Positions 6,646 to 18,925 of a stretch of DNA of 35,941 nucleotides are shown piece by piece. This DNA is from an uncultured Bacilli bacterium (lineage in GTDB: Bacteria > Bacillota_I > Bacilli_A > RF39 > UBA660). The position numbers and the translations under genes were made by a program. The notes below the pieces were generated by a model, which ran no database searches, was not told where the DNA came from, and saw only the letters and a program-made list of their open reading frames with translations. Position 1 is the first letter of the stretch, and every line of letters begins with the position of its first letter. Where the stretch lies: NCBI GenBank assembly GCA_944363705.1, contig CALVUY010000007.1, forward strand, positions 1 to 35,941. Reading direction: 5' to 3'.

Positions 6646-7296
6646 ATGACTATTGAAGAATTTATAAAAGAAGTAGAAGCTTTAGGATTAAATGTAACAG
6701 AAGAACAACTAGAACAACTAGATATTATTTATAATACCTTAGTAGAAACTAATAAAACAATGAATTTAACAAGAATAACAGAAAAAGAAGATGTTTATCT
6801 AAAACATTTCTATGATAGTCTAACTCTAGCCAAAGTATATGACTTATCTAAAGTTAATACTCTTTGTGATATTGGAACAGGAGCAGGTTTCCCAGGACTT
6901 GTCTTAAAAATATTCTATCCTAATTTAGAAATAACTTTAGTGGATTCTCTTTTAAAAAGAGTAAAATATCTTAACAATCTAATAGATAAATTACAATTAA
7001 CTGGTATAAAAGCTTATCACAATCGTGCAGAAGATTTAATTAGGGATGGTAAAAAATTTGATATCGTAACAGCAAGAGCTGTAGCAAGTTTACCTAAATT
7101 ACTTTTATGGACTATGCCTTTAGTAAATAAAAATGGTAGTTTTCTTGCTATGAAAGGTAAAGTAGAAGAAGAACTAAAACAAGCTGAAAAAATAATATTA
7201 AAAAATAATTATTGTTTGGCCAACAAATTTAGTTTTATTTTACCAAAAGAAAACAGTGATAGAATAATTTTGGAGTTCAAATATAAAGATGAATAA
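6646..7296 (+). CDS. rsmG: 16S rRNA (guanine-527-N7)-methyltransferase RsmG
   Basis: RsmG methylates G527 in the 530 loop of 16S rRNA using S-adenosylmethionine. The 216-residue protein shows the Rossmann motif I LCDIGTGAGFPG at about 74-85, and the RsmG features KHFYDSL and TARAVASL. ATG 6646 follows the TAA of mnmG directly, with AAAGGGGA upstream. The mnmG-rsmG pair followed by noc is conserved from B. subtilis, although here one extra gene (7289-8233) lies between. Confidence 0.96.
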   Translation: MTIEEFIKEVEALGLNVTEEQLEQLDIIYNTLVETNKTMNLTRITEKEDVYLKHFYDSLTLAKVYDLSKVNTLCDIGTGAGFPGLVLKIFYPNLEITLVDSLLKRVKYLNNLIDKLQLTGIKAYHNRAEDLIRDGKKFDIVTARAVASLPKLLLWTMPLVNKNGSFLAMKGKVEEELKQAEKIILKNNYCLANKFSFILPKENSDRIILEFKYKDE

Positions 7297-8233
7297 CAAT
7301 AATTTTAAGATTATTAAAAAGAAAATAGAATTAAATAATTTAGATGAATATAATCCTAAGAAACTAAAGCAATCAGAAAACATTTTAAAAGAAACAATTT
7401 CAAATACTTTAATTAATGATTTTTCTTTTTTAATAAAACTCAATCAAATATCTTTAAACAAAGATATGAGTTTAGAAGAAGCATATAACAGTTATAATGG
7501 AGAAATTCCAACTATTGATTGTATAGGTATTTCTAAAATATTAAAAAAAAAGCTAAAGAAAATAAATATAAATACTTATTTCATAACTTGTAAAGCCTCT
7601 GGATTTTCTACAAAATATGGTGATAGTTTAATTAAAGAAGCACATACTTTTTTAATATATCCTTGTAAAAAAAAAGATAAATTATTATTTATTGTTTATG
7701 ATGCTGGTTTTAGAGTAAATAAACCTATAGTATTTTATGATAAAACTTCATCAAAAGAGTATAAATATCTTACTGGTAAAGTAAAGATAAGTTATGATAA
7801 TAATATATATAGTATAAAAACTAATGTCAGAATGAAAAGAAATTTTAGTATTATTAAAGATAGTATAAATTGGCATTTTAATCCTTATGAAGAAACAATT
7901 AATATAGATTCTTTTGCTAAAAATATTTATAAAGTGAAATTCTCTTATAAAATAATGTATTATAGCAATGCTAAAAATAAGAGATTTTGTTTGGGATTAA
8001 ATATAGTAACTAAAAAGCTAGACTTATACACCTATAAACATCATGAAGAATATTTCCTAAATGATTTATTTAATCTGTCAAAAGAAGAAATATTAAACAA
8101 ATTACATTTTTTAAAAACAGATAATAAACTTACTAATAAAGATATAGAAGATTTACTAAAAATTTTAAAAATATATGCATATGCAAGAGATATTCCTATA
8201 TTAAATTCAAAAATAGAACAGGAATTTAAATAA
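7289..8233 (+). CDS. Unknown protein with a possible Cys-His-Asp triad (NAT/transglutaminase-like)
   Basis: I cannot place this 314-residue protein in a named family. Three sites resemble the catalytic core of arylamine N-acetyltransferases and transglutaminase-fold enzymes. They are Cys78 in PTIDCIGIS at a predicted helix start, His119 in EAHTFLIY, and Asp138 in FIVYDAGF, the last being close to the DVGFG motif of NATs. Spacing (41 and 19 residues) is close to that of NATs. The remainder is AT-rich, Lys/Asn/Tyr-rich and has no signal peptide or membrane helix. It overlaps rsmG by 8 bp with only a weak TGGAG at 7271-7275, so it is translated by coupling. The fold and activity are inference. 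Confidence 0.75.
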   Translation: MNNNNFKIIKKKIELNNLDEYNPKKLKQSENILKETISNTLINDFSFLIKLNQISLNKDMSLEEAYNSYNGEIPTIDCIGISKILKKKLKKININTYFITCKASGFSTKYGDSLIKEAHTFLIYPCKKKDKLLFIVYDAGFRVNKPIVFYDKTSSKEYKYLTGKVKISYDNNIYSIKTNVRMKRNFSIIKDSINWHFNPYEETINIDSFAKNIYKVKFSYKIMYYSNAKNKRFCLGLNIVTKKLDLYTYKHHEEYFLNDLFNLSKEEILNKLHFLKTDNKLTNKDIEDLLKILKIYAYARDIPILNSKIEQEFK

Positions 8234-14180: not shown

Positions 14181-15280
14181 ATGAGTTTAAAAGCAGGAAT
14201 TATAGGACTACCTAATGTAGGTAAAAGTACATTATTTAATGCCTTAACCAAAACCCACATTTTAGCAGAAAACTATCCCTTCGCAACAATTGATCCAAAT
14301 GTTGGAATAGTAAATGTTAAAGATGAGAGAATTGATAAACTATCTAGTATGTATAATCCTAAAAGAACCATCTATACAAGTTATGAATTTATTGATATAG
14401 CAGGACTTGTAAAAGGAGCAAGTAAAGGAGAAGGACTAGGTAATAAATTTTTATCACATATAAGAGAAGTAGATGCCATTTGTGAAGTAGTAAGATGCTT
14501 TGATAATGGTAATATCATCCATGTTGATGGTAATATAGACCCTATAAGAGATATAGAAACAATTAACTTAGAACTTGCTCTAGCAGACTTAGAAACAGTA
14601 ACTAATAGAATAAATAGAATTAGTAAGAAAGCTAGAATGAGTAAAGATAAAGATGAACTTTTAGAGTATGAAACACTAGAAAAGTTAAGAAAGGCTCTAG
14701 AAGAAAATATTCCAATAAGATTACTTGACTTAACAAAAGAAGAGAAGTGTATTATCAAAAGTTTTAATCTTTTAACAGAAAAACCATTGATTTACCTTGC
14801 AAATGTTAATGAAAATGATTTAGGTACAAACAATGATTACGTTAAAAAAGTTAAAGAATATGCTAGTAAAGAAAATGCTAAAGTAATAGAAATATGTGCT
14901 AAAGTAGAAGAAGAGTTAAGTGAATTAGATGATGTTGATGCTAAAGAGATGTTAGAAGCTCTAGGACTTGAAAAAAGTGGGTTAGACTCTCTAATATCAA
15001 CAACATATGATTTATTAGGACTTGCAACATATTTTACAGTAGGACCTGATGAAGTAAGAGCATGGACCTTTAAAAAAGGGAATGAACGCCAAAAGCTGTG
15101 CCGGTATCATCCATACAGACTTTGAAAAAAGGCTTTATTAAAGCAGAAGTTATTTCCTATGAAGACTTAATAGAGTGTGGTAGTGAATTAAAAGCAAGAG
15201 AAGCTGGTAAAGCAAGACTTGAAGGAAAAGATTATCTAATGCAAGATGGAGATATCTGTCACTTTAGATTTAATGTATAG
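14181..15280 (+). pseudogene. ychF: Ribosome-associated ATPase YchF/OLA1, apparently double-frameshifted in the TGS domain
   Basis: YchF is a ribosome-associated P-loop ATPase of the Obg group. The frame from ATG 14181 gives G1 GLPNVGKS (9-16), the DIAGLVKGA switch and the ATP-type NVNE motif. Homology runs intact to FKKG near 15079, then the frame leaves the family sequence and stops at 15125. From ATG 15082 a second frame continues the family ([15 protein letters not shown]), and from about 15127 a third frame gives [19 protein letters not shown] and ends [11 protein letters not shown] at 15280. Removing one G from GGG (15078-15080) and one A from the run at 15125-15130 restores one ORF of 365 residues, the usual length. 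So either two real insertions have truncated the protein or both are sequence errors. A copy of the same 3' part lies at 17372-17880 with the same two insertions. Confidence 0.88.
14771..15280 (+). repeat. Direct repeat, copy 1 (3' end of ychF)
   Basis: These bases recur at 17372-17880, displaced by 2600-2602 bp. By hand count, the first ~180 bp (14771-14950) differ at about 16 positions, including two one-base gaps. The last 330 bp (14951-15280) differ at only 4, and 14951-15202 is identical. This abrupt change in identity suggests gene conversion or a recent recombination junction. Confidence 0.92.
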
Positions 15281-15335
15281 ACAACAATTATTAAAAGTTG
15301 TACAATAAAAATCAAAAATTAAAAAGGTGATTTAG

Positions 15336-17337
15336 ATGTATTTAACAAACCAATTATTTAGTGCCATAGAAACAATAAGTACCAAAAGAAATGAAATTAT
15401 CAAAAATGGTACAATAGTACCAAATTATAAAGTATATGAAAAGAAAAATGATGAAAATATAATATTTACATGTTTTGATATATGTTCTAAACAAATTACA
15501 ACAAATAATATAATTATAAATCAATTTAAGTATGAAGGTGAATTATTTTTTAAAATAAATGAAAAAACAAATGAGATAACTATATCAAAATTACCATGTG
15601 TTACTTTAGGTAAAGAAAAAATACCAGTTTTAACAAGTGACATTGCTACCATTATAATAGAACAAACGAAAAAAATTATAGATCCAAAAGATATAATAAT
15701 AAAATCTATAAATTCAAATCACTTCTTTGCTATAGATAATAACACAGAAAAAATCATTCCCCAAATAGATAAAAAAGAAATTTATATTTTAATAAAAAAG
15801 ATAATATCAAAAATAAAAGAAGAAGTGGAGTATATAAAGAAAGAAGTATTAAAAGAAAAACAAAAAAATGACAGAATAGATAAGATGAAGGAAAGGATAT
15901 TTTTGAAAAGGAAAGATGTATATGGCTTAAATTCAGATAATTATGATAATTATCAAGACTTTTTAAACGATTTAAAACAAAAAATTCTAAAGTATAGTAA
16001 TAAAACTAAAGAAACAATAGAAAGGCATATTAATTTGTCTAAAAAAAAATATATCAAATTATTGGAAGATGCTGGTATTAAAGATCCTTTAAGACACTTA
16101 AAAGACGATTTAGATGATACAAAAAAAGATAGTATAATTAGTATTATTTTAAAATATAGTAATCTTATAAGCCCTCAAGTAGAAACAAAGGAAGAATATA
16201 ATCCATATAGTGGTAAATATGAATGGAATACTATATATTATTATCTTGAAGACAATTACGATTATTGTTGTTTTATGCAAAAATTAATAATAAAAGAACA
16301 AAAATTAGATAAATATAAATACGAAATTAAAAATGAAAATTATTTTTATAAAAATCAAGATCCATATTCTAAAGAATTAAGACAAGGAATTAATTTGGTT
16401 CAACAAATATACAGTTTAGAAAAAAAACTAGATTATTATAATAAAATATTAGAAAATCCTCAGAAAATAGTTCTTCATTTCCAAAAAAATAGTGATTTGA
16501 TAGGAAATATATATCAATTTCCGTATTTTATAAAATATGGTAAAGATATATATTTTGAAACTTCAAAATACGAAAAAAACAACAGAAGCTTACTATATAA
16601 TCTTTTTATGATAAAACCAGGTGTAAAAAAAAATAAACTTTGACTATATTCCTCAATTTACAACAGAGTATGGGAAAGAATTCGCTAAAAAAAAATCTGA
16701 ACAATTAAAAGTACGTAAGGAAATAGCAGAAGGAAAACAAGATTTTTTATTATGTGGAAGATTGATAACAATGATTCCAAATTCAATTGCATATACTGAG
16801 TTAGAAAAAATTGTTGATTGGTCTATTGAAAAATCATATCATATTAATTTTATTTGTGAATCGCTAGATTTACAAGCAAAAGTAAAAAGAATAATTGTCT
16901 TAAAAGAATTAGATGCTTTTAAAAATAATAAAGCATATTTACAAGGCAATTGCTTTGTAAATGTTGACCCTGATTATTACAGATCATATTTTATAGATAC
17001 AAAAAAGAATAAAAATCTATGGCATCAGTATGATTATTCTTCAGATTATAAGTATAGAAGAAAAAATAAAGAAAGTTTAAGTGTTCTAATATACTACCAT
17101 CTAGCTAAAAATTATAATGAAAAATTAAATAATTTTGATTATAAGAAAGTAGAAGAAGAGTTATTAGGAAGTTATTCTTCTGTAGATTTTGTGGAAATAC
17201 AAAAAAATTATCCGGAATATCTTTCTTTTTACCAAGAATGTAATTGGGATAACCACTGGCTACAAGATGACTGGAAGTTAATATACAATAGGATATCTGA
17301 AGAAAATGAGTCAAAACAGAAAGTTTACCATTTATGA
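15336..17337 (+). pseudogene. Large unknown AT-rich gene interrupted at an A9 tract
   Basis: The family is not recognised. A good ribosome site (AAAGGTGA, 15323-15330) precedes ATG 15336. The first frame (435 codons) stops at 16641-16643. A second frame is open from 16627 to 17337 with no stop and no independent ribosome site until 16762. The only place where both frames are open together is the run of nine A at 16625-16633. With eight A the two join into one 666-residue protein (VKKINFDYIPQF at the junction). Residues ~140-190 form a Lys/Glu-rich coiled coil; no membrane segment or signal peptide is seen. It ends KQKVYHL, similar to the KQRIFHI end of the gene at 17924. Composition is more AT-rich than the housekeeping neighbours. 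It could be phase-variable, rescued by slippage, or a decaying acquired gene. Confidence 0.8.
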
Positions 17338-17371
17338 GATTAATCGCCTAACAAAAGAAAAATAATTAATT

Positions 17372-17880
17372 TTTTAACAGATAAACATTGATTTATCTAG
17401 GAAATATTAATGAAAACGATTTAGGTACAAACAATGATTACGTTAAAAAGTAAAAGAATATGCTAGTAAAGAAAATGCTAAAGTAATAGAAATATGTGCT
17501 AAAGTAGAAGAAGAGTTAAGTGAGTTAGATGATGTAGATGAAAAATAAATGTTAGAAGCTCTAGGACTTGAAAAAAGTGGGTTAGACTCTCTAATATCAA
17601 CAACATATGATTTATTAGGACTTGCAACATATTTTACAGTAGGACCTGATGAAGTAAGAGCATGGACCTTTAAAAAAGGGAATGAACGCCAAAAGCTGTG
17701 CCGGTATCATCCATACAGACTTTGAAAAAAGGCTTTATTAAAGCAGAAGTTATTTCCTATGAAGACTTAATAGAGTGTGGTAGTGAATTAAAAGCAAGAG
17801 AAACTGGTAAAGCAAGACTTGAAGGAAAAGATTATCTAATGCAAGATGGAGATATCTGTCATTTTAGATTTAATGTGTAA
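17372..17880 (+). pseudogene. Duplicated 3' fragment of ychF (direct repeat, copy 2)
   Basis: This fragment corresponds to roughly the last 170 codons of ychF and has no start, GTPase domain or promoter. Its first part has decayed: a base is lost in each of two homopolymer regions (near 17384 and 17446) and an in-frame TAA stands at 17546-17548 where copy 1 encodes an intact frame. The last 330 bp remain almost identical to copy 1, including the same two insertions (GGG at 17678-17680 and the A-run at 17725-17730). The final stretch from GTG 17698 is open and encodes the last ~50 TGS-domain residues with one substitution (A to T in REAGKARL). It sits between two unrelated cargo genes. Confidence 0.9.
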
Positions 17881-17923
17881 GAAAAATATATGATTTTTAA
17901 AATAAAGGAGTTGAATAAAATAT

Positions 17924-18508
17924 ATGGATATAGTAAGAATACTCTTAAAACATCAATTAGAAAATAATAAAGGTGCTAGTTTTGTAATAATACCAACTGG
18001 CAACAAGTTAATAACTCCAAATGATTATTTAAATTGGATTAATTATGTTCCTAGTCACTTCAGTATTGATGAAATATTAAATAAGAATGCTGGCGAATTA
18101 AGTGAAGAAGAAATAAAAATACTTAGTTTTTTACAAAAAGAAAACCAAGTAAAGCCATATTTTAAAAACTTTGTTTCTAGTGAAGAAAAAACAACATCTT
18201 CTTCAGCTTTAGTAGTATATGATTATATGAAGTCTATAAGTATTAATAAATATGCTGATATAAAATTAACTAAAGAAGAAAGAGAAGAATGTATAAATAT
18301 AGTTAATAAAATAGATAGTGATGATATTGAAACAAGTATTGAAATTTTCTCATCTACTGCTTCAAAGGGTAAAGATTATTATATTATCTATCTTTTAAAA
18401 AGAAGACTTTATTCTATAAGAATGTCTAGAAGTGATAAAGAATTAAATGCACAATTACAATCTAATTTAGGAATGGAATATAGAAAACAACGCATTTTCC
18501 ATATTTAA
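17924..18508 (+). CDS. Unknown protein downstream of the ychF repeat
   Basis: I do not recognise this 194-residue protein. It is soluble, with no signal or membrane helix, rich in Ser, Ile, Lys and Glu, and probably mostly helical after a short N-terminal mixed region (FVIIPTGNKLITPNDYLNWI). AAAGGAG at 17904-17910 stands 13 bases before ATG 17924, a somewhat long spacing. It begins 44 bp after the second ychF tail, just as the gene at 15336 begins 56 bp after the first, and the two proteins end in similar peptides (KQRIFHI and KQKVYHL). It lies between ychF and rpsF, which are normally adjacent, so it belongs to the inserted material. Confidence 0.75.
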   Translation: MDIVRILLKHQLENNKGASFVIIPTGNKLITPNDYLNWINYVPSHFSIDEILNKNAGELSEEEIKILSFLQKENQVKPYFKNFVSSEEKTTSSSALVVYDYMKSISINKYADIKLTKEEREECINIVNKIDSDDIETSIEIFSSTASKGKDYYIIYLLKRRLYSIRMSRSDKELNAQLQSNLGMEYRKQRIFHI

Positions 18509-18531
18509 TAGTCAAATTAGAAACAAAAATG

Positions 18532-18558
18532 AAAGAAAAAGATAGACTTTTCTTTTTT
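18532..18558 (+). terminator. Possible A/U-rich terminator before rpsF
   Basis: AAAG-AAAAG (18532-18541, one bulged A) can pair with CTTTTCTTT (18547-18555), followed by TTT. The stem is mostly A-T, so this is weaker than other terminators here. It overlaps the -35 of the rpsF promoter. Confidence 0.4.
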
Positions 18559-18571
18559 CTTTTGCTATAAT
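18543..18571 (+). promoter_or_regulatory. Promoter of rpsF-ssb-rpsR
   Basis: TAGACT (18543-18548), a 17-bp spacer, and TGC TATAAT (-10 at 18566-18571). Transcription would begin near 18578, giving a leader of about 60 nt. Confidence 0.75.
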
Positions 18572-18577
18572 ACTAGC

Positions 18578-18637
18578 GAGTATTTAAAATGCTCCTTACC
18601 TAGAAATAGGTCTTATGTCCAGAAGGAGGTGTGTTTA
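18578..18637 (+). promoter_or_regulatory. Structured rpsF leader that can sequester the ribosome site
   Basis: CTCCTT (18592-18597) is fully complementary to AAGGAG (18623-18628), the Shine-Dalgarno of rpsF. Between them ACCTA-GAAA-TAGGT (18598-18611) forms a 5-bp hairpin with a GNRA tetraloop, leaving an 11-nt bulge. A competing upstream hairpin, GAGTA (18579-18583) with TGCTC (18590-18594), would take part of the anti-Shine-Dalgarno. The S6:S18 complex is known to bind a leader structure of its own mRNA in many bacteria. I do not see the CCG bulge reported for that motif, so the link is inference. Confidence 0.5.
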
Positions 18638-18925
18638 ATGACAAATTATGAAATCATGTTTATCGTTAAACCAGATTTAGAAGAAGCTGCTATTAAAAAA
18701 GAAGCAGAAAATCTAAAGAAAGTTTTAACTGATAGAAAATGTAAGATTAATGAAGAAAAAGCAATGGGACAAAAAGAATTAGCTTATGAAATGAACAAAT
18801 ATAAAAATGGTTATTATTTCTTATATGTTGTAGAAGCAACTCATGAAGCAATTTCTGAATTTGACCGTCTAGCTCGTCTAAATGAAAATATTTTACGTCA
18901 TTTAGTTATTAGAGTAGACGATTAA
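18638..18925 (+). CDS. rpsF: 30S ribosomal protein S6
   Basis: S6 binds S18 in the platform of the small subunit. The 95-residue product starts [16 protein letters not shown], the standard family beginning, and contains [20 protein letters not shown] and HLVIRVDD at the end. I choose ATG 18638, 7 bases after AAGGAGGT (18623-18630); an in-frame GTG at 18629 lies inside that site. It heads the rpsF-ssb-rpsR unit. Confidence 0.96.

Follow-up and report, generated by a model that had tools for sequence, protein, structure and literature searches.

A nine-adenine tract and a prfB-type CTT TGA C heptamer at the frame break of an accessory cargo gene in an uncultured Bacilli bacterium

The split cargo gene and its place between ychF and rpsF

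The window, by which we mean the whole stretch of 35,941 nucleotides analyzed (contig CALVUY010000007.1, from the genome denoted G000), carries between ychF and rpsF an accessory gene, here called the cargo gene, that is split into two long reading frames at a run of nine A. The features on which the analysis turns are as follows.

14181-15125, + strand: ychF, cut to 314 aa, its 3' end frameshifted by two single-base insertions compared with relatives
15336-16643, + strand: first frame of the cargo gene, 435 aa plus stop, comprising an N-terminal beta domain and a long helical region
16041-16049, + strand: second A9 of the cargo gene, in frame
16625-16633, + strand: A9 tract at the site of the frame break; the homologous site in the intact gene of G033 is A8
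16633-17337, + strand: second frame of the cargo gene, 234 aa plus stop, comprising a C-terminal alpha/beta domain
16638-16644, + strand: CTT TGA C, the heptamer that the genome's own prfB has at its +1 frameshift
16687-16695, + strand: third A9 of the cargo gene, in frame of the second half
17358-17880, + strand: second copy of the ychF 3' end, a remnant downstream of the cargo gene

The second frame is +1 relative to the first and is closed upstream by a stop where the tract begins, and the first frame, read through A9, ends on the TGA at 16641-16643. The tract lies at codon 430 of 666, that is, 65% into the gene. When tract length is varied by script, the gene is open at A8 and A11 (666 and 667 aa), and A7, A9, A10 and A12 all lead to a stop after 432-436 aa, the A10 version ending at 433 aa on a TAA that follows immediately. 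Open reading frames and script together confirm the arithmetic of an earlier note on this DNA, according to which the two long frames split at A9, the second intact for over 200 codons, would become a single 666-residue protein at A8. The same note had the two frames meeting only in the nine A. Their junction does lie at the tract, but the restriction falls away: the overlap extends through 16640, and thus CTT (16638-16640) and TGA C (16641-16644) belong to the junction as well.

The first frame is homologous over its full length to the intact genes at L003/L087 (G033, about 68%) and in G041, G054, G079, G252, G365 and G211, and the second half, which holds the most conserved residues of the cargo family (20 invariant columns), is 73% identical to that of G033. 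Homologues are scarce, occurring in 5 of 148 and 7 of 386 genomes with the window's own genome counted in. A profile built on the alignment found nine loci in genome contigs, a scan of genome contigs with the first half alone gave no match, and relatives of the cargo gene were not found in viral contigs, phages and plasmids. For the protein family, no significant match to any described family or fold came out of the Pfam, PHROGs, PADLOC and PDB searches: the best Pfam and PHROGs hits are weak (E 0.037 and 0.006, respectively), PADLOC and PDB sequence searches with the cargo protein gave no match, and Foldseek, run with the whole protein and with the C-terminal domain, returned no E below 0.001, with VIA-align giving Z up to 6.5, mostly on the helical region. 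A weak PADLOC match (E 0.001) belongs to a neighboring ORF. Modeled with AlphaFold (mean pLDDT 68), the intact protein of G033 has a beta domain at its N terminus, then a long helical region (about 148-376), and an alpha/beta domain at its C terminus, and the tract position falls in a poorly predicted linker (374-460); the C-terminal part modeled alone reaches a pTM of 0.75. The predicted 435-aa product is without the C-terminal domain, in which the invariant N, DP, YY, H, D and R residues sit.

The insertions in ychF lie at GGG 15078-15080 and A6 15125-15130 and are missing from relatives comparable in sequence. Both are shared by the two ychF copies, which are identical over 254 nt (14949-15202), the corresponding sites of copy 2 being 17678-17680 and 17725-17730. 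It is likely that a redundant ychF copy decayed and that gene conversion or assembly collapse then carried its state onto the first. In G033, a member of the same genus, the cargo gene also follows ychF, is intact and 69% identical, and stands, as in the window, between ychF and a partial second ychF 3' end (ychF, cargo gene, ychF remnant, rpsF). In G027, ychF is directly followed by a 194-aa gene and then by rpsF, the encoded protein being identical to that of the 17924-18508 gene of the window; in the window itself (14181-18660) both the cargo gene and the 194-aa gene are stacked between ychF and rpsF. Other members of the genus have different single genes in this slot (L096, L003, L009-L024), and with contents that differ by species the ychF-rpsF gap is an exchange hot spot. 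The inserted stretch shows no recombinase. The arrangement is one that would result from a single crossover with DNA in which a ychF 3' fragment lay beside the cargo gene.

Direction and age of the frame break

Intact homologues have an open frame across the tract point, as seen in G033 (665 codons), G041 (726), G054 and G252 (913), G079 (803), G365 (704), G211 (977) and the rabbit-gut loci L088, L089 and L091 (730-743). The homologous tract site in G033 is A8 (GGAGTAAAAAAAATAAATTTTGAC), and outside this sister gene the tract is broken up in the remaining homologues. With intact relatives open at this point and A8 in G033, the A9 is, on sequence comparison, a derived +1 change in a 666-residue protein family. 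The view of the earlier note that one protein is split at the tract is thereby borne out, and, where it proposed a comparison of strains, the comparison with a sister species of the same genus finds an A8 and an intact gene. At L095 (6181-8230) a cargo homologue is disrupted by a 44-base deletion, its frame being otherwise open; this second broken copy indicates that the cargo gene is lost now and then.

Comparison of G000 with G033 gives a dN/dS of 0.35 for the first half of the cargo gene (bootstrap 0.26-0.49) and of 0.21 for the second half (0.13-0.32), with 0.055 for the 5' part of ychF. The second half is free of stops over its 234 codons, and of its 24 positions that are invariant in seven outgroups none has changed in G000, which under neutrality limits the time since the break to at most about 15% of the branch. 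A similar limit is set by the stop-free frame (P<0.05 beyond d 0.06). G000-specific replacements number 19 against 10 in the second half and 19 against 27 in the first (Fisher P 0.058), a slight excess in the second half that hints at early relaxation. This excess is the only mark of pseudogene decay that we find, next to a dN/dS of purifying selection, an open frame and fully retained invariant residues. Long-standing decay, against which the earlier note had argued from the intact downstream frame, is ruled out by the substitution pattern and the missing stops. Relaxed downstream substitution, named in that note as an observation that would speak against its interpretation, is not what dN/dS indicates, and only the slight lineage-specific excess points in this direction. 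A second half without decay means either that the break is recent or that the second half is still made, in other words that the break is leaky.

Long A/T runs in the genome and in the cargo gene

Runs of at least nine A are not rare in the window by composition, with 7 seen and about 9 expected. Coding DNA was compared with synonymous shuffles in 347 kb of G000 outside the window, the genome stretches sampled being 400 kb of G000 plus the window and 400 kb of G018, of the same genus. In the G000 coding sample, A/T runs of at least nine are seen once versus 63 expected, and the ratio to shuffles falls from 0.57 at seven or more to 0.15 at eight and 0.02 at nine. G018 has a similar deficit (across both samples, ratios of 0.15-0.21 at length 8 and 0.02-0.04 at length 9), and non-coding DNA of G000 holds about 50 times more such runs per kb. 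A coding deficit of this kind is taken as a sign of harm through slippage in transcription, replication or both (Baranov et al., PMC1088944). The earlier assumption that an A9 is slippage-prone is supported by this avoidance, which, for coding runs of at least eight, suggests that such runs are costly in the genus.

The presence of three A9 in the 2 kb of the cargo gene has, at the genome rate, a probability of about 3e-8, and the run counts of the gene equal the synonymous-shuffle expectation from its own codons. With coding runs of at least nine nearly absent, yet three in this one gene, a slippage mutation is a natural cause of the break. A further accessory gene, at 7289-8233 and shared by 4 of 60 related genomes, is intact and carries a pair of in-frame A9. 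The long runs in these two genes fit recent arrival or weak selection; genes of this kind can be expected to acquire slippage mutations, and accessory genes that break the run avoidance may more generally mark either condition. Elsewhere in G000, a 268-aa ORF (L047 3757-4560, contig C11) has an A9 at about its third codon, and the start of a gene is the classic site of homopolymer phase variation. Other A-run frame breaks in the sample, collected by a mechanical scan, are candidates, several of which recur in G018 and look like gene junctions.

The junction heptamer, competing explanations and known systems

The prfB gene of G000 reads GGAGG TCA CTT TGA C at G000:C9 (L045) 16585, with a 3-nt spacer between GGAGG and the heptamer; frame 0 provides a short open leader, and the +1 frame runs for 350 codons. 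Within 436 kb there are just two places where CTTTGAC links an open 0 frame with an open +1 frame, prfB and the cargo gene; in the G018 sample prfB alone has such a junction, and when one-base insertions were simulated at the A-runs of sampled ORFs, none of the 3854 placed its first stop in CTTTGAC. As at a prfB-type site, the cargo gene has CTT in frame before TGA and C after the stop, and a +1 shift at this point would enter the second frame at GAC TAT ATT, giving a full-length chain with three altered residues (KKINFD to KKNKLD). In many bacteria prfB combines a CTTT slippery sequence and a weak TGAC stop with a Shine-Dalgarno-like element 3 nt upstream (PMC12421855), CUUU being by far the best shift site (PMC5009743, PMC12421855), whereas CUUUGA without stimulator is only weakly shift-prone (PMC6321510). 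The sequence upstream of the cargo CTT (GTGTAAAAAAAAATAAA) has no Shine-Dalgarno-like element at 3 nt, the nearest AGG ending 16 nt before CTT, and RNA structure near the site does not go beyond that of shuffles (z 0.75), so that no RNA stimulator is seen. The site is not conserved among homologues, the intact relatives being without the break, and the heptamer derives from the native codons AAC TTT GAC, where G033 has TTTTGAC in an intact frame. Found post hoc and made from native codons, it could be a chance match, and with no Shine-Dalgarno-like element and CUUUGA alone weakly shift-prone we do not call it a programmed site; it is a plausible leak site for +1 ribosomal shifting. A ribosomal -1 shift on the A run was rejected as being in the wrong direction, the second frame being +1.

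We put the chance at somewhat better than even that the break is a recent +1 slippage frameshift (A8 to A9) in an accessory gene, reversible and with some translational leak. The cargo gene, sporadic in its distribution, was probably acquired horizontally, and replication slippage from A8 to A9 would have caused the break. The main product in the sequenced population would then be the 435-residue protein without C-terminal domain; slippage at the DNA level could bring the tract back to an open length, and a minority of ribosomes may shift +1 at CUU UGA C, just past the tract, to give full-length protein. We infer the slippage cause and the products, as well as any benefit of the off state. In favor of this course of events stand the A8 of G033 and the open frames of the other intact homologues, the selection on the second half with its unchanged invariant residues and missing stops, the avoidance of long coding runs, the scarcity of the heptamer junction in the genome and in the simulated insertions, and the rarity and occasional loss of the family (7 of 386 genomes; L095 broken). 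Against it count that the A9 length is the consensus of one MAG, that the two single-base insertions in ychF, 1.5 kb upstream, could mean a local assembly or strain-mixture problem, that replacements are in slight excess in the second half, and that the heptamer is post hoc and without a stimulatory Shine-Dalgarno sequence.

Functional +1 ribosomal frameshifting, in which the A9 allele is kept and the CUU UGA C shift yields truncated and full-length products in a ratio set by release factor 2, is in our view unlikely. The heptamer is that of prfB exactly, in the right frame and direction, and has the scarcity described above; TGA is a minority stop in G000 (35 of 400 ORFs), the second half is under selection, and the tract lies in the low-confidence segment between helical region and C-terminal domain. 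The site would, however, have to work without the upstream element and without significant RNA structure, and the heptamer is missing from relatives. In its strongest form, namely that a second cellular gene besides prfB uses CUU UGA C, a poly-A slippage indel having been captured as a recoded gene whose ratio of short to full-length product follows release factor 2 without internal Shine-Dalgarno sequence, the proposal is a long shot.

Assembly or consensus error, with A8 and an intact gene in the real strain, is in our estimate rather improbable. The window comes from a fragmented MAG (112 contigs, 5% contamination), and ychF just upstream has its two +1 insertions in both repeat copies; these are, however, more readily accounted for by decay of one repeat copy and its conversion or collapse onto the other, and the cargo tract lies in single-copy sequence. 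Moreover, at other places in the window the in-frame A9 runs are intact, and a survey flagged a single frame break, away from an A-run, versus 123 full-length matched genes.

The on/off switch put forward in the earlier note, that is, replication slippage toggling A8 (on) and A9 (off) as selected bet-hedging, fares poorly, and we give it only a small probability. Both lengths occur in nature (A8 in G033, A9 in G000), and with such runs avoided elsewhere it is unusual for a single gene to keep three A9. However, beyond the one A8 sister gene the tract is neither conserved nor over-represented in the family, and it lies well inside the gene instead of at the 5' end or in a promoter, the former being where homopolymer tracts tend to be found (PMC2831843); the agreement of run numbers with the shuffles does not point to tracts having been selected, and neither of the other two A9 breaks the frame.

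RNA polymerase slippage that repairs the frame in a fraction of the mRNA, after the manner of tssM or endosymbiont genes, is very unlikely to be the explanation: A9 reaches a length at which slippage occurs in many bacteria, coding avoidance at lengths 8-9, as in this genome, is the signature of slippery runs (PMC1088944) and the second half is under selection, but one extra A leads to TAA at once and not to the long frame, one A fewer or two more being needed, A runs in transcripts gain bases far more often than they lose them (PMC5574713), and run avoidance may equally reflect replication slippage. Polymerase rescue as the earlier note envisaged it is possible, but its dominant slip stops immediately, and, requiring the disfavored -1 or +2, it should be weaker here than in tssM1. 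The better candidate for rescue is +1 ribosomal shifting at CTT TGA C, which the earlier reader overlooked.

On the reading we prefer, a recent and reversible slippage frameshift with some leak, the break is mostly an ordinary slippage inactivation of an accessory gene, to which the frameshift heptamer adds interest. The cargo gene provides a natural, directly testable case of possible indel survival, in which a slippage mutation is followed by the cell's own frameshift heptamer within a few codons. A real leak would mean that genes other than prfB, too, can have their frameshift mutations buffered by RF2-type recoding.

Four known systems bear comparison. With homopolymer phase variation of the swrA and inlA type, the cargo gene shares a poly-A run whose length sets the frame; its tract, in contrast, is neither 5' nor conserved, and the A9 is known from one MAG consensus. 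Citrobacter rodentium tssM1 has an A11 run in which added A's bring the frame back, at about 20% (PMC4256274). Both tssM1 and Thermus dnaX resemble the cargo gene in having an A run with a stop within a few codons in one frame, so that long and short products are possible; whereas extra A's rescue tssM1, at the cargo A9 a +1 slip leads to a stop, and -1 or +2 is needed. The poly-A frameshift genes of Blochmannia and Buchnera are likewise found in AT-rich genomes, with one indel in a poly-A tract and no accelerated evolution downstream. Long coding tracts are many there, and core genes are among those affected, whereas G000 has hardly any such tracts and the affected gene is an accessory one. 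Compared with prfB, where the shift occurs near codon 26, the cargo site comes late in the gene, is without the internal Shine-Dalgarno-like sequence 3 nt upstream, and was made by an indel in one lineage and not conserved; it shares with prfB the CTT slippery codon, the TGA followed by C, the +1 direction and a downstream frame that is open only after the shift.
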